Below, piece by piece: positions 8,760-44,709 of a stretch of DNA of 64,000 bases. The stretch is from assembly GCF_001078375.1 (NCBI RefSeq), contig NZ_BBXI01000021.1, positions 124,001 to 188,000 on the forward strand, given 5' to 3'. The position numbers were made by a program, and so were the translations under genes. The DNA is from Veillonella tobetsuensis. GTDB lineage: Bacteria > Bacillota > Negativicutes > Veillonellales > Veillonellaceae. The notes below the pieces were generated by a model that saw only the letters and a list, made by a program, of their open reading frames with translations, searched no databases and had not been told where the DNA came from. Within the stretch, counting starts at the first letter, position 1, and each line of letters starts with the position of its first letter.

Positions 8760-9569
8760 TTATAATTTCTCAATAACCTCTTTCACCAGTTCATAAGTAT
8801 CTACGAGACGCAGTTTTCCAACCCTAGGATTATCTGTAATCTCCTCATAGATATCCTCCAACGTACCTGCTGGTGCTAGTTTCCATAGTTTACACGGATA
8901 GAGTTCAACGGTTCCGATGACTTCCAAATCATCTAGCAACATACCTAAGTCCTTATGATTGAACCAACAGTCTGTATCGATAGCAAGATTTGTATTATCT
9001 TTTCGGCATGTGATTTTGCTGTTTAGAAACTCTTCCATTGTTGGTTTTTCTTCTTGTAAAAGCCGCGTACAGGCTAAATGATATTCGATTTTCCGCGGTG
9101 ACTGATCTACGTCAGAGACAAATATAGCACCATACTCGTTTTCAAACTTAACAGCTAATACATCGCCCTCCTTAAAATGAGGTTCTCTCTTTATTTTAGA
9201 TTTACGAACCTTAAGCGGCTTCAGATTTTCACTTTGTAGCTGTACGGCTAACTTATCCAATACCTTTTGACGCTGTTTAGGGGCCTTATCATCGATTTCT
9301 AGCCAAAACTCGTGAGGGCCCTGAGCGATTATATTTAATGCTTTCTCTTTAACATTATCTGGTAGATGCCCTATCTTCCACAACGAATAGGCCATCGCAG
9401 TCCAATAAATCTCTGTATAAAACTCATCAGTACAAAAATTTTGTTTCTCACTTAAGATTTCAGAAATTATGGTATCGACACTGACACCATCCTTGTACCG
9501 TTCAACAATGGCATTATAAATATCATGGCCATCATCACTATCTATGATTTTCACACCGTCAATAGCCAT
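8760..9569 (-). CDS. two-domain acidic protein of unknown function, immunity-like
   Basis: 269 residues, ATG with AAAGGAG. The first 100 residues are a helical domain (DDGHDIYNAIVERYKDGVSV, TDEFYTEIYWTAMAYSLWKI). The second half starts FKEGDVLAVKFENEYGAIFV, a small beta barrel similar to Imm26-like domains. A basic segment (LKPLKVRKSKIKREPHFKEG) links the halves. Cytosolic. It lies 26 bp from the stop of the gene upstream and 41 bp from the start of the next, probably in one operon. Immunity role inferred. Confidence 0.5.
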   Translation of the reverse strand: MAIDGVKIIDSDDGHDIYNAIVERYKDGVSVDTIISEILSEKQNFCTDEFYTEIYWTAMAYSLWKIGHLPDNVKEKALNIIAQGPHEFWLEIDDKAPKQRQKVLDKLAVQLQSENLKPLKVRKSKIKREPHFKEGDVLAVKFENEYGAIFVSDVDQSPRKIEYHLACTRLLQEEKPTMEEFLNSKITCRKDNTNLAIDTDCWFNHKDLGMLLDDLEVIGTVELYPCKLWKLAPAGTLEDIYEEITDNPRVGKLRLVDTYELVKEVIEKL

Positions 9570-9595
9570 ATGAATCTCCTTTAGGACAACAGCTC

Positions 9596-10276
9596 TTATT
9601 CCATCTCGCCATGGGTTGCTACAAAGTCATCCTTAATCTGTTGTAGTTCTTTTTTAGCGACCATGTATTGTTTCAAGTCAATTTGTCCGTTCTCTTTTTG
9701 TTCAGCCAAGGTCTTTTCTTTATTTATGATTCTAATCCAGTCTAATTGTGTACTAAATTGAGTATTAACGCCTTCACTATTTTCTCGTAACGCAAGCAAC
9801 GCAAAGACTTCATCCATGCCGAGATTAAACATGTCGCTTTCAAAATCGATAGGTTCAAAATAATAGCGAACCGTATCCGCCCCAAATTCACCATCTAATT
9901 TGGCCCATTCTGACACTGAAAGCACGGTAAAGCCGAGTGTATCGTTGCCAAGGCTTTCAACAAACCAACGCACCTCATAATCAGGCTTAATAAAGTCGTT
10001 GAAATATTTGATGGTCACATCTCGATCTTGCTCATCACCGTAAGGAATTTGCAGCTCTTTATCGCCCTTTTTTAGCACAATATCGTCACCATAGGGCTTG
10101 CCATTACTAACCGTTTTAATATCGATAGGCTCATCCATCATATCATTGAAATAGTTCACCACATCTTCGTCATACTCGCGCCAGTCAATCCAGATGATAG
10201 CTTCGGAATCAAACAAATCAGTTAGGTCAATATCATTGGCAAAAAAGCTTCTTAATTCTTTATACAGATTTTCCAT
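9596..10276 (-). CDS. acidic protein of unknown function (immunity-island member)
   Basis: 226 residues. The start is put at the ATG at 10276 (MENLYKELRSFFANDIDLTD) because AGGAGAG lies 7 bp upstream; an ATT/ATG frame 21 bp earlier has no site. Strongly acidic, no signal peptide, no membrane segment. It ends with a helical stretch (EKTLAEQKENGQIDLKQYMV) of coiled-coil type. I do not recognise the family. Its size, charge and position match its neighbours. Confidence 0.5.
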   Translation of the reverse strand: MENLYKELRSFFANDIDLTDLFDSEAIIWIDWREYDEDVVNYFNDMMDEPIDIKTVSNGKPYGDDIVLKKGDKELQIPYGDEQDRDVTIKYFNDFIKPDYEVRWFVESLGNDTLGFTVLSVSEWAKLDGEFGADTVRYYFEPIDFESDMFNLGMDEVFALLALRENSEGVNTQFSTQLDWIRIINKEKTLAEQKENGQIDLKQYMVAKKELQQIKDDFVATHGEME

Positions 10277-10346
10277 CGTCTCTCTCCTATGTATCACTTA
10301 TTTTTTAGGTAGTCTACAACACCCGTGTCACCACTTTAATACAACT

Positions 10347-10778
10347 CTATAAGGTTTCATAAATCACATCTTGTTGAGCCGTAAAGTTTTCATCAAAAGA
10401 AACCAAAGCATATAGATGTCCTGCTGGGGATTCACCTATATCATAACCTAGTGCAAATGCGTCGTAACAACCTGATTTATCTAACATTATATCCGTTAGT
10501 GTTAGCACAACAGACTCTTCTTGCGATATTTCCTTTTGTATGATTTCCTGTGCTAATTGGTCTAATTTATCTAATTGAATATATAATTGTTCCCACATTG
10601 GTAGTGAAAGCACCTCAGCCTCAGTATAATCGGTGCAACTAATATTGAGGTTTTGAAAGGCTTGTCCTACATTCTCTAAACGATTAGTGCCCAATCGTCG
10701 AGATACGAAATAAACGCCATACGGTTCTACTGCCCAGCTTTCAACGTTCCATAATGTCATTAATTCAGATTTTATCAT
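10347..10778 (-). CDS. small acidic protein of unknown function (immunity-island member)
   Basis: 143 residues, ATG with GGGGT upstream. Begins MIKSELMTLWNVESWAVEPY and ends HLYALVSFDENFTAQQDVIY; Trp-rich at the N-terminus, acidic overall, no signal peptide. No family recognised. It lies within the run of eight minus-strand genes of like character. Confidence 0.5.
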   Translation of the reverse strand: MIKSELMTLWNVESWAVEPYGVYFVSRRLGTNRLENVGQAFQNLNISCTDYTEAEVLSLPMWEQLYIQLDKLDQLAQEIIQKEISQEESVVLTLTDIMLDKSGCYDAFALGYDIGESPAGHLYALVSFDENFTAQQDVIYETL

Positions 10779-10816
10779 TATGATACCCCACTAGTTCGCC
10801 ACACTTCACTAGTTTA

Positions 10817-11632
10817 TTATCCTGCAATATCCGCACTAACAGGGTTCCCATCCGCATCAATATTGGCTATGATGCAGTGTCCCCAGAAAATATCATCATC
10901 GTCATAATAGACCTCTATGGTGCCATCATTACGAAACGCCAATTCGCCCATAGTAATACGCTTAGCAAATATTTCTGCCGTAATTGGATCTTGGTCATCA
11001 TTGTCGAGCCAATCGTTAGCGAGGTCTAATAAGGTCTCACTAATATAGGTACTAATTCGCTGTTCAAATGCTTTGAAATTATCGATTTTATTGAAAGCCG
11101 ATAACGCCACGGTGCAGCTTTCATCAGAACCCTCGTCTACATCAAGGGTGAATGCATAATCATCAATTCTCGCTGTGTAATATTGATACTCTCGATTTAA
11201 CAGGAAGTCACCCCTGTCAGTATGAAGGTATTTAGGAGTTTTCAAATAAGCTGACAACGCCTCTAACTCGCTATGTTTAGCATGTTCCTCTAAGACCTCA
11301 AGTACATAATAGCGATTATTCCAAGAGGGACGCATATAGCCCAAGTCCTCTAATGGTTTTGCTTTCTTAACTAACAATTTATAGACCCCATGGGGCTCAA
11401 AAGAATAACCCCATCTATCGTCAAGACCCTCAATAATCCACGTCAAAATGCCTTCACTACGGTCAAGCACGCCCGTCCGAGTATCTAGGATAGCATCGGT
11501 AGACACCAGCGGTCTATGGTACTTATCTAAATAAGGACTAGCCCCATTCGCATCACTACGCGGTAATGCATAAATTTCAAATACTTCCGGCTCAAACTCT
11601 GCTTCATATTCTGGTAGACGTACAACACTCAT
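10817..11632 (-). CDS. DUF2262-like protein
   Basis: 271 residues, ATG with AGGAGAG. The C-terminal third (ITMGELAFRNDGTIEVYYDD, then FWGHCIIANIDADGNP) matches the DUF2262 pattern, in which an acidic strand is followed by FWGH and a glycine-containing turn. The N-terminal half holds a separate domain with a DUF-like EIYALPRSDANGASPYLDKY opening. DUF2262 proteins are common in immunity arrays of polymorphic toxin systems. Cytosolic, very acidic. Function is inferred from family and context only. Confidence 0.6.
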   Translation of the reverse strand: MSVVRLPEYEAEFEPEVFEIYALPRSDANGASPYLDKYHRPLVSTDAILDTRTGVLDRSEGILTWIIEGLDDRWGYSFEPHGVYKLLVKKAKPLEDLGYMRPSWNNRYYVLEVLEEHAKHSELEALSAYLKTPKYLHTDRGDFLLNREYQYYTARIDDYAFTLDVDEGSDESCTVALSAFNKIDNFKAFEQRISTYISETLLDLANDWLDNDDQDPITAEIFAKRITMGELAFRNDGTIEVYYDDDDIFWGHCIIANIDADGNPVSADIAG

Positions 11633-23719: not shown

Positions 23720-23822
23720 CTATGGATGATGAGGCTCCAAAAAACTCCACCGGCCGGGTCTGACTACGCCCTTCGGGCTTCGCAGGGCCAAAGTCGTTTT
23801 TTGAACCCTCATCATCCATCAT
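23720..23822. repeat. long stem-loop with the shared GC-rich core (copy 1)
   Basis: The arms (left ATGGATGATGAGGCTCC, right the complement of ATGGATGATGAGGGTTC) enclose A and T runs and a core containing CCACCGGCCGGGTCTGACTA and GCAGGGCCAAAGTCG. The core is the reverse complement of that at 43074-43134, but the arms are unrelated there. It lies between MFS and the tandem repeats. Confidence 0.75.
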
Positions 23823-23992
23823 TCAAAACGGTTTTCGCCCTTATCCCCATACCAAGCATGCCAAACAAAAACCCCATAACAAAATACACACTAGGGCGAA
23901 ACACAAAGTCGTTTTTTACTTAGCCTAGCCCCTTTCTAACTAATAATAATTATGAAGCACCGTAAGAAAATGCGGCACTTACGATAAACAAA

Positions 23993-24319
23993 AAAGGACG
24001 GGTACCCTTCTCAAAACGACTTTGCCCTGTTTGCTCTATGGCTCGTTTTCGGCATAGAAAGTTTAATGCAAAAAGGATGGTCCGTTCAGAAAACGACTCT
24101 GTCCTTCTCCCTATGGCTCGTTTCGGCATAGAACTTATAGCAAAAGGACGGATACCTTTCTCAAAACGACTTTGCCCTGTCTGTCTCTATGGCCCGTTTC
24201 GGCATAGAACTTATAGCGAAAAGGACGGATACCTTCCTCAAAACGACTTTACCCTATTTGCTCTATGGCTCGTTTTCGGCATAGAAGGTTTAATGTAAAA
24301 AGGATGGTCCGTTCAGAAA
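23993..24319 (+). repeat. tandem array of four full and one partial ~76-bp units
   Basis: Units begin near 23993, 24070, 24142, 24219 and 24297. Each has AAAAGGAYGG, a variable stretch, AAAACGACTYTG, and (in the first four) CTATGGCTCGTTTCGGCATAG. The last motif is an inverted copy of the purB 3' end. Unit 5 runs into the stem-loop at the purB end. No coding function; the plus-strand ORFs here are by-products. Confidence 0.85.
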
Positions 24320-24409
24320 ACGACTTCGGGCTCCGCGTAGCGCAGTAGCGTGTCGGCTTTCTGGACGGACCATCCTATACATTAAGGATTATAGGCCGAA
24401 ACGAGCCAT
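24265..24409. repeat. long inverted repeat at the purB 3' end
   Basis: The left arm begins ATGGCTCGTTTTCGGC (24265); the right arm ends in the complement of ATGGCTCGTTTCGGC, which is purB coding sequence (MARFG). The arms are about 62 bp and include the perfectly paired GGATGGTCCGT. The loop region is GC-rich (GGCTCCGCGTAGCGC). It can act as the purB terminator. Confidence 0.8.
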
Positions 24410-41582: not shown

Positions 41583-42857
41583 CTACTCTACAATCACTGT
41601 AGACCCATTAGGAATGATGGTAATCGATGCATCTTCTCCCATAATACCTCGTGCAATGCCCAATGCTTCCTCTAATGTGGATGCAGGAGTCATATGCATA
41701 TCGCAGATGACTTGATGGTCACAATCTTCGGTAACAACGATAACCTTAAAATGATTCAAGATACGAGCTAAGATTTGAATTTTCCATTGGTATGGCTTAG
41801 TTTCATTACGCGGTACACCGTGGATATCGTTCAAAATTTGTTGAGGGCTTTCCATGTTTTTAATAGCTTCATACAAAGCCTCACCACCATGGCCTTCCTT
41901 GCAGGATGCAGCAATAATAATCACACCACCATCTTTACAAGATGCTTCGCCAGCAGTCATACCCTTAACAGATTGATATAGGTTTTGATCCGATGGGTAT
42001 CCACCATTGCTAGTAATAACGATATCTGCAGGCATAGCTTTCACAGAAGACAAGGAGCGAATAAATTCATAGCCCGCCTTATGCGCATCTACACAATCGC
42101 CTGCTACAGCCTTGATAATTTCCTTTTTGCTGTCGATGACAACATTCAAAATAAATTGTAAATTCGCTGTTCGTGCAGCATACAACATATCCTTATGAAT
42201 TGGATTTTCGTCGATTTTACCAGTCCGAGAATGCTCACTTTCAATAAACTCAGCACAATGATTTGCAAGCACTGTAACCTTGGATGCAACGCCCGGCAGC
42301 ACGGATTTGCGACCGCCAGAGAATCCTGCGAAGAAATGAGGGTTAATTAGACCTTCGGAAATGAGTAATTCTGTTTCCACTGCTAAACGATTGATGACGC
42401 ACTTGCCGCCAGACGGCAATGTACCAATTTCCACCATATTCGCTGCATCTTCAGAATCATGGTTAATGATGTTTTCAGTCTTAACAAGATCTTCGCCAAA
42501 ACGATTTACCATCTCTTCGTGAGACATCGGTCTGTGAAAGCCTGTGGCAATTAAAATCGTAATATCAATCGTAGGGTTTACTGCACGAATGCGACGAAGC
42601 AAAATCGGCAACGTCACCTTACTAGGCATAGGACGCGTATGATCACTCGTAATGATAACCATATTGCGTTTTCCTGCTACCAACTCCTCTAAAGAAGGGC
42701 TATTAATAGGGTGATCAAGCGCATCCTCAACAAGCTCAGCGGGACTCTTCTCTGCCTTATACGCCGCCGCATTAGACACAAGAACCCCCTGCACAAACCG
42801 CTCATCAATAGACACATCTACACTTTTATAATCATATGGAAAAGAATACGTCTTCAT
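41583..42857 (-). CDS. larA: nickel-pincer lactate racemase (LarA family)
   Basis: 424 residues, ATG with AGGAGG. LarA hallmarks: TSDHTRPMPS, TGFHRPMSHEEMVNRFG and INPHFFAGFSGGRKSVLPG, which carry the His and Lys used in catalysis and in holding the nickel-pincer cofactor. It interconverts L- and D-lactate; other 2-hydroxy acids are known for relatives. It would feed the D-lactate dehydrogenase encoded downstream. The cofactor makers LarB, LarC and LarE are not in this window. Confidence 0.88.
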   Translation of the reverse strand: MKTYSFPYDYKSVDVSIDERFVQGVLVSNAAAYKAEKSPAELVEDALDHPINSPSLEELVAGKRNMVIITSDHTRPMPSKVTLPILLRRIRAVNPTIDITILIATGFHRPMSHEEMVNRFGEDLVKTENIINHDSEDAANMVEIGTLPSGGKCVINRLAVETELLISEGLINPHFFAGFSGGRKSVLPGVASKVTVLANHCAEFIESEHSRTGKIDENPIHKDMLYAARTANLQFILNVVIDSKKEIIKAVAGDCVDAHKAGYEFIRSLSSVKAMPADIVITSNGGYPSDQNLYQSVKGMTAGEASCKDGGVIIIAASCKEGHGGEALYEAIKNMESPQQILNDIHGVPRNETKPYQWKIQILARILNHFKVIVVTEDCDHQVICDMHMTPASTLEEALGIARGIMGEDASITIIPNGSTVIVE

Positions 42858-42944
42858 ATCGACACCTCCTGTTATATTTATAATAAGTATACCAAAAAAA
42901 CTCAGAAGCAGCTAAATCGTATTCCCAATCTATAATTGAAGAAA

Positions 42945-42993
42945 TAAAAAAGGTGAGCTGCCTCGAAAAAACGACTTCGGGTCCCTTCCTCTA
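42945..42993 (+). repeat. half-copy of the stem-loop core
   Basis: AAAAAAACGACTTCGGGTCC follows AAAAAGGTGAGCTGCCTCG in the same order as in the larger elements, but no matching right arm is present. It lies in the larA-clcA gap. Confidence 0.5.
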
Positions 42994-43007
42994 CTGTCTG
43001 TAATAAT

Positions 43008-43194
43008 GCAGCAAAATCATATTTCTAATCTTAATAGTTCTAAATGACAAAGGACTGAGGTCCTACTAAAAAAACGACTTTGGCCCTGCGAAGGCCGTAG
43101 GCCGAAGTCAGACCCGGCCGGTGGAGGCTTTTTTAGTAGGACCTCAGTCCAAAACGATTTAAAGCTAATTAGATTGGAAATACGATTTTGCTGC
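43008..43194. repeat. long inverted repeat at the clcA 3' end, with the shared core
   Basis: The left arm begins GCAGCAAAATCATATTTC; the right arm ends in the complement of GCAGCAAAATCGTATTTC, which is the clcA coding end (AAKSYF). Inner arms GGACTGAGGTCCTACTA pair perfectly. The loop (about 43074-43134) carries CGACTTTGGCCCTGCGAAG and GTCAGACCCGGCCGGTGGAG, the same core as at 23720-23822. Probably also the clcA terminator. Confidence 0.85.
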
Positions 43195-44709
43195 TTTTAA
43201 ACGTCCTCGTTCACAAGAGACTTGCAGTTCATCTTCCGATTCTAGTTTCACATCGCCAAGAGGCACGATGTATGTACCATTCCGGCGAATGCTAACGATG
43301 AGTGTTCCATCAGGCAAATTAAGGTCTTGTAATGGTGTATTAATATAAGAGGCCACCACAGGAACCTTAGTTTGGAAGAAGGTTTGCACATTTTCTAAGT
43401 TGCTTTGACCGCTCATAGCTTGTAATAAGGAATCGTAAATAGGTGGTTCTTTCAGCATTTCTGCCACCAAGTACGCCACGATAGTAACGATACCAATAGC
43501 ATAGATATTGGAAAAGCTATCCGTCATTTCAAGAACGAGTAAAATCGCCAAAATTGGGGTGCGCATAGCGGCCGCTAGTATGCCACCCATGGCACAAAGA
43601 ACAAATTGAGGTACAAAATCTGGAGCTATTAATCCCATGGATGAAAGCAGGCTTTCACAAAAAGCACCGGCTGATGCACCGATAACAAGCATCGGTAGAA
43701 AGATGCCGCCCTGTGCGCCGCTGCCATAACAAAAGGTAGTGAGCAAGATTTTACCCAGCACAATGCCACCGAGAAGCAATACACCATGAGATTGAAAGGC
43801 TAGCTGCCCTACTAAATCATTGCCACCGCCCAATAAAAGCTGGGAATCAAAGCCGATAACGGCCACAGTCACAAAAGTAATCACAAGTTTTAAGAAACGA
43901 GAGCATTTCATCCACTCGAAGAAACGCTTAAAGGCAAATATCATGCGGCAAAACAATACACCGCAGAGCCCCATTAAAATACCTACACCGAGCAGAACCG
44001 GAAAATAATCAAGCGGCATCCCTGAAGTTACGGAAAATCCGAGGGCCGGCGTAAGACCAAAGATAGTTACCGTAATGTAGTTCGATATGAGCGTAGCCAC
44101 AAAGGTAGGAATGACGAGGTATGGATAAAAACTCTTATGCACCTCTTCAAAGACGAACATGGCGCCGGATACAGGTGCGCTAAAGGCAGCGGTCAGACCA
44201 GCTCCAGCTCCAGCGGAGGTAAGAATCCGCTGTTCACGCAATCCAGAGTTCATCCAATAGGATACGATTTTACCAGCAGAGCCCCCTATTTGTACGGCTG
44301 GCCCTTCACGCCCCACAGAAAATCCTGCAAAGCCTGTCAATACGCCACCTATCATCTTTGAAATAAGCGTGCGATATGGCTTCATATCAAATAAACCGAG
44401 CATTTCCCCTTCAATTTGAGGAATACCTGAACCGCCAGATAATGGTGCCCACGTCAACAATCGATCGATAATAAAAGCAAACACTACCATGGCAATGAGC
44501 CAGGCTATGGCCCATTCGATAGAAATATCGCCCATCAAATGCCACCTAACATGCTCGGACTCGAGAATTAAGTACCGATAAGCAGCTCCGAAAAAGCCTG
44601 CAATAATACCTACTAATGCCCCTTTGACGATGAGTTCAGATAGCAAAATACGATTCATCGACATATCTGCCAAGGTAGAGCTGTGTTTATTTAGTTTCCA
44701 TAACCTCAT
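43165..44709 (-). CDS. clcA: ClC-family chloride channel or H+/Cl- antiporter
   Basis: 514 residues, ATG with GGAGGCG. ClC selectivity motifs are present: GSGIPQIEG, GREGPAVQ (with the gating Glu) and GAGAGLTAAFSAPVSGAMFV. About ten or more membrane helices. The last 70 residues (NTPLQDLNLPDGTLIVSIRR) form a TrkA-C ligand-binding domain. It moves Cl- against H+ in acid stress or charge balance, useful to an acid-exposed lactate user. Whether it is a channel or an exchanger cannot be read. Its last codons are inside the inverted repeat. Confidence 0.9.
   Translation of the reverse strand: MRLWKLNKHSSTLADMSMNRILLSELIVKGALVGIIAGFFGAAYRYLILESEHVRWHLMGDISIEWAIAWLIAMVVFAFIIDRLLTWAPLSGGSGIPQIEGEMLGLFDMKPYRTLISKMIGGVLTGFAGFSVGREGPAVQIGGSAGKIVSYWMNSGLREQRILTSAGAGAGLTAAFSAPVSGAMFVFEEVHKSFYPYLVIPTFVATLISNYITVTIFGLTPALGFSVTSGMPLDYFPVLLGVGILMGLCGVLFCRMIFAFKRFFEWMKCSRFLKLVITFVTVAVIGFDSQLLLGGGNDLVGQLAFQSHGVLLLGGIVLGKILLTTFCYGSGAQGGIFLPMLVIGASAGAFCESLLSSMGLIAPDFVPQFVLCAMGGILAAAMRTPILAILLVLEMTDSFSNIYAIGIVTIVAYLVAEMLKEPPIYDSLLQAMSGQSNLENVQTFFQTKVPVVASYINTPLQDLNLPDGTLIVSIRRNGTYIVPLGDVKLESEDELQVSCERGRLKAAKSYFQSN

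Follow-up and report, generated by a model that had tools for sequence, protein, structure and literature searches.

Template switching at quasipalindromes is already known, from reporters and from scattered cases: the thyA hotspot and lacZ QP reporters of E. coli, which measure such switching (PMC7202029), yeast genes (PMC8604942) and RNA genes (PMC8794818). Homogenised inverted-repeat arms together with inversion of the spacer are described as the signature of a polymerase that has switched template (PMC8604942), and hairpins can both arise and be maintained through such switching (PMC8794818). Most of the known cases concern short repeats examined one by one, whereas the Veillonella hairpins considered here occur in dozens, share a common tip and have arms of up to about 200 bp. 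They resemble known quasipalindromes in that imperfect arms become copies of each other, spacers are inverted, and changes of several bases occur in concert, some of them altering a protein.

Intrinsic terminators also have a strong hairpin, often soon past a stop codon, though the Veillonella hairpins differ from them in having no general U-tract, a conserved tip, and coding sequence within their arms. Like the REP and BIME sequences that go with RAYT (Y1) transposases, the Veillonella elements are dispersed intergenic hairpins. REP stems are conserved in sequence; in the Veillonella family, by contrast, the tip alone is conserved and the stems are not, and the number of Y1 genes does not track that of the elements. 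The motif MRSC-65-2 (PMC11109978) is similar in having a single long stem, covariation between its copies, which number dozens per genome, and a suspected selfish nature, but its description as a UYCCGG repeat found in many phyla, sometimes near a transposase, sets it apart from the Veillonella family, which has the motif CGACTT...TGGAG and was found in Veillonella only. We found no earlier description of a Veillonella hairpin repeat in the open-access literature, though one may exist elsewhere; a survey of non-coding RNAs that includes Veillonella describes, in its available portion, other motifs of the genus (PMC8632094).

The palindrome at the end of clcA

The window, by which we mean the whole stretch of 64,000 nucleotides from Veillonella tobetsuensis that was analysed, contains the following features of the clcA locus, together with a second copy of the same element elsewhere.

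41583-42857, minus strand: larA-like lactate racemase (Pfam Lar_N 1.5e-69, LarA_C 5.9e-65)
42906-42982, plus strand: tandem-duplicated half-element in which the clcA end is copied a second time, partially and inverted (42906-42932), ahead of AAAAAACGACTTCGG (42966-42980)
43005-43073, plus strand: left arm, made up of the clcA 3' end in inverted copy (about 43005-43037) and, at 43052-43073, the perfectly paired inner stem
43075-43126, plus strand: core or tip, a conserved dispersed repeat, CGACTTTGGCCCTG...CAGACCCGGCCGGTGGAG (BLAST against own genome; covariance model)
43129-43197, plus strand: right arm, comprising the native clcA 3' end, the DNA beyond it and the perfect inner stem
43165-44709, minus strand: clcA, CLC chloride channel with TrkA_C (open reading frame; Pfam Voltage_CLC 2.9e-81, TrkA_C 4.3e-12)
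23721-23821, minus strand: second copy of the element, with different arms (core 23745-23796; outer-arm score 38 against a null maximum of 28)

A sequence-only reading of this locus had described the end of clcA as one arm of a giant palindrome, and the repeat search bears this out: the longest inverted repeat of the window has arms of 69 nt (43005-43073 and 43129-43197) that are 81% complementary and separated by a spacer of 55 nt, and its right arm takes in the clcA stop codon TAG (43165-43167) and the last 10 codons (43165-43197). Pairing is perfect over the inner 22 bp adjoining the core. The outer arms, taken at 25-150 nt from the core, give a local score of 47 compared to a maximum of 28 for 462 pairings of mispaired arms, and the minus strand of 42890-43200 folds with -121.9 kcal/mol (z = -9.2), a value reached by none of 100 shuffles. 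The left arm does repeat the last codons of clcA in reverse, as that reading had also claimed, with an inverted-copy score of 44 against a shuffle maximum of 24.

Two features had escaped the earlier reading, namely the dispersal of the core over dozens of sites in the genome and a tandem partial copy on the left side. In the latter, the stretch 42906-42932 (27 nt, 93%) copies the end of clcA in inverted orientation once more and a second AAAAAACGACTTCGG comes after it at 42966, so that the left side can be described as a tandem unit of about 102 bp; the half-element is found in V. atypica too. Both left copies of the clcA end carry the Ser-Tyr codons of V. tobetsuensis and V. atypica, where most other species have Phe-Phe. 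Going along the direction of clcA transcription, larA is the next gene past the hairpin.

A family of hairpins with a common tip

The region has 34 BLAST matches in its own genome, most of which cover the core alone. A covariance model built from 16 copies, in which both partners vary in 15 of the 16 outer pairs, identifies 39 elements in the V. tobetsuensis genome, 53 in V. atypica and 0-7 in twelve other congeners, the genomes having been searched piecewise and the genes around copies being simple ORF picks. Among the 40 relatives searched the core element is restricted to Veillonella, and in 26 genomes from other genera the model detects no element. The full type-1 core pattern occurs in the genome collection only in V. 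atypica and as single matches in Streptomyces and Curvibacter, which are probably due to chance; the core had no match in the phage and plasmid collections, and an Rfam covariance-model scan of 42000-44500 gave no match at E up to 1.

In the tip, an internal loop (CGACTT / TGGAG) is capped by an apical hairpin that varies, and the whole is set on a long stem with arms specific to the site. Within the tip ACTT (5' side) and GGAG (3' side) never vary, and a scan for the tip motif between complementary arms gave zero matches in shuffled DNA. A kink-turn was considered for the tip, as judged from the letters the loop would fit CGAC/GGAG tandem G-A pairs, but it lacks an adjacent 3-nt bulge and the candidate was dropped. 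There are several types of core, the second of which (ACGACTTCGGGCTCCGCG...GTGTCGGC) has about 10 copies and occurs only in the V. tobetsuensis genome and V. atypica. Each copy in the family forms its own long palindrome with unrelated arms, from tens of bp up to about 200 bp long and taking in gene ends.

Several observations concern the surroundings of the elements. The second copy in the window belongs to a more complex segment (23721-24400): half-elements (AAAACGACTTTGCCCTGT...CTATGGCTCGTTTTCGGCATAG) arrayed in tandem come after it, together with a type-2 hairpin (24301-24376). The sequence AACGACTTNG has 8 matches in the window, all near 23721-24400 or at clcA, compared to 0.35 expected in all. 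Around oriC (locus L012, G000 C23, 191-19365; DnaA boxes at 9281-11288) eight element copies lie within 20 kb, three of them in the gap adjoining dnaA, and V. atypica has the same cluster. At another locus (L103, G000 C22, about 221702-221767) two parS-like TGTTTCACGTGAAACA sites lie near each other, as also in V. atypica and G006. V. atypica additionally carries a separate palindrome family on C11 (L106-L111), represented by AAATTAGAACAGGCCTGTTCTAATTT and similar sequences, often paired.

Arms are local and change in concert

Cores at different sites are near-identical (mostly 90-100%), whereas arms from non-orthologous sites are no more alike than shuffled ones (mean score 12.0 versus 11.6), with the exception of one cluster of duplicated neighbours. 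Within a copy the two outer arms match far better than mispaired arms do (mean 35.6 versus 16.0, sd 3.0), and in 12 of 22 copies the score exceeds all 462 nulls, whose maximum is 28. Since the core recurs across the genome and has self-complementary arms that differ from site to site, copying is a recurrent property of the element and not a one-off event at clcA.

An orthologous site in V. atypica (G013, Veillonella atypica KON ATCC 17744) exists for 20 of the 22 copies. When 24 stem pairs are followed in the only 10 copies that have an identical stem offset in V. atypica, 37 of the 67 changed pairs are concerted double changes, 18 are single and 12 are double without kept pairing, several of the stem counts being sensitive to small alignment choices. 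In three of the 20 orthologous pairs the core is flipped between collinear flanks; the clcA copy is unflipped. Replacement of whole arms is seen between the copy at L012:19314 and its V. atypica counterpart (L098), where both stems are perfect and have little common sequence.

Coding DNA is affected where the genes for an M29 peptidase and a dCMP deaminase converge. Here each of the two gene ends is an inverted copy of the other, with scores of 53 in V. tobetsuensis and 45 in V. atypica and identity at 46 and 44, respectively, of 64 alignment columns, and the encoded ends change from DGRLQV to DGRLLV and from YKSTGRTLNITL to YQSTDRVLEITL. Five congeners that lack the element at this locus have gene-end scores of 19-25, from short or gapped matches; G003, G005 and G006 have a simple terminator-like hairpin in the gap.

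Between queT and queC both arms and core are well kept across seven congeners, which means that arm turnover is not uniformly fast; also at this site, cores and arms differ between species. In the gap upstream of leuB, G010 has nearly no DNA between the genes and other congeners carry elements; in V. tobetsuensis an older element appears to be split there (L035), with a type-1 element lying between its halves. Beside clcA, V. atypica has an element of its own whose inner arms have no visible source in the empty V. tobetsuensis site, so that copying of the local flank fails to explain every arm.

Which clcA arm is original

The C-terminus of ClcA (...AAK-x-FFQSN or AAKSYFQSN) is kept across congeners and aligns among them, which identifies the right arm as the native gene end. 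Following the check that the sequence-only reading had proposed, to look at the same gap in related species, we found the inverted copy only in V. tobetsuensis and V. atypica among the congeners compared; it is missing from all 12 others, with scores in G007 and G009 (22-24) at the level of the shuffle maximum. These latter two genomes have the clcA-larA order of the window, with a hairpin from this family in the gap; it has the position and the tip motif in common with the clcA hairpin but a different core and different arms. The remaining ten show no trace of the element directly 3' of clcA, and in several of them another gene adjoins clcA; they are thus no clean empty sites. As the proposed check demanded, the hairpin in the clcA-larA gap appears from this comparison to be older than the inverted copy, and the left arm would have been made by template switching in the common lineage of V. 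tobetsuensis and V. atypica.

In G011, G002 and G010 (L051, L056 and L057) clcA is immediately followed by part of its own 3' end (TTAGATTGGAAA...) as a direct copy, so duplication of the clcA end is not confined to V. tobetsuensis and V. atypica.

Template switching and its alternatives

Taken as a whole, the comparison shows the clcA palindrome as a member of this Veillonella hairpin family whose arms have probably been rewritten by template switching, the explanation that the earlier reading had offered as one possibility and that is now the best supported, the events themselves being deduced from comparison between genomes. The hairpin would stall replication, upon which the nascent strand would switch template and copy one arm onto the other. 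Such copying may repair the inner stem and so keep it perfect, may extend the palindrome outward into adjoining DNA, here the last codons of clcA, and may sometimes invert the spacer. Template switching is favoured because the homogenisation of arms and the inversion of spacers match its published signatures: clcA provides the imperfect inverted repeat, comparison with relatives the homogenised arms, and other copies the spacer inversion. Concerted arm change can also arise from structural selection with step-wise compensation, and the 18 single changes exist.

Selection on a functional RNA, with the complementary arms kept by compensatory substitutions and copying unneeded, is a distinctly unlikely explanation. 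It would fit the invariant tip (ACTT/GGAG) on a stem where 15 of 16 outer pairs covary, and the conservation of orthologous queT-queC elements, yet it gives no reason why the left arm should equal the coding 3' end of clcA, and leaves unexplained how two unrelated convergent genes came to be inverted copies over about 64 nt with changes in their amino acids. A step-by-step path is likewise hard to imagine for the replacement of whole arms, as between L012:19314 and L098, or for the flipping of cores, and the orientation of the elements relative to genes has no clear bias. Such mixed orientation is what one expects of a repeat-like element and, with near-identical cores dispersed by dozens and a lineage-specific expansion, it would agree with a MITE- or REP-like miniature transposable element that brought its arms along as terminal inverted repeats; the long-stem motif MRSC-65-2 has been read as selfish (PMC11109978). 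We nevertheless consider this unlikely: the arms differ from copy to copy and, not being common to the copies, are no terminal inverted repeats; Y1 transposase matches do not follow the elements (9 matches and 3 elements in G010, 4 and 39 in G000); and no record in the phage and plasmid collections matches.

It is also somewhat unlikely that the hairpin is a plain intrinsic transcription terminator of clcA, even though its core lies 39 bp past the clcA stop, the left arm contains a single weak terminator-like site, and about half of the copies lie no more than 100 bp from the 3' end of a gene by simple ORF calling. Across 35 stems there is scant enrichment of U-tracts (T fraction 0.36-0.40 after the stem versus 0.31 in the background), and copies are also found between divergent genes, around oriC and, in one instance, just upstream of leuB between two genes on the same strand. 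A canonical terminator function is not supported for the family, though the hairpin may have such a role at some sites without this defining the family. The suggestion that the left arm is what remains of another gene like clcA, which the sequence-only reading had named as the finding that would overturn it, has in its favour the AAKSYF-coding sequence in that arm and is hardly credible otherwise: a tblastn search with ClcA over 42401-43164 found no such gene, giving chance-level matches and the last 7-9 residues of the copies alone, and the likeness ends where the palindrome ends.

The presence of near-identical cores at dozens of sites is left unexplained by template switching between arms. 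Our best guess is that the element is repeat-like (selfish or neutral) structured DNA or RNA rather than a dedicated terminator. One speculative route, to which we give little credence, is that the core spreads when a single strand able to form the hairpin is copied into a new site, with fold-back synthesis inversely duplicating the local flank and so giving each copy its own arms. If this were true, the family would be a mobile element hallmarked by inverted duplication of its target flank, reshaping gene ends as it spreads.

Significance

Veillonella tobetsuensis offers dozens of quasipalindromes in parallel within one natural genome, all with one tip and with arms that lend themselves to comparison between sister species. 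Its cores flip, and the 3' ends of genes are visibly rewritten. For annotation this carries a warning, as the C-termini of proteins whose genes adjoin these elements may come from arm copying and not from adaptation. The Veillonella elements provide a system for studying how perfect long hairpins originate and are kept up, how deep into coding DNA the copying goes, and how a structured, conserved tip can spread even as the stem beneath it is built anew from site to site.
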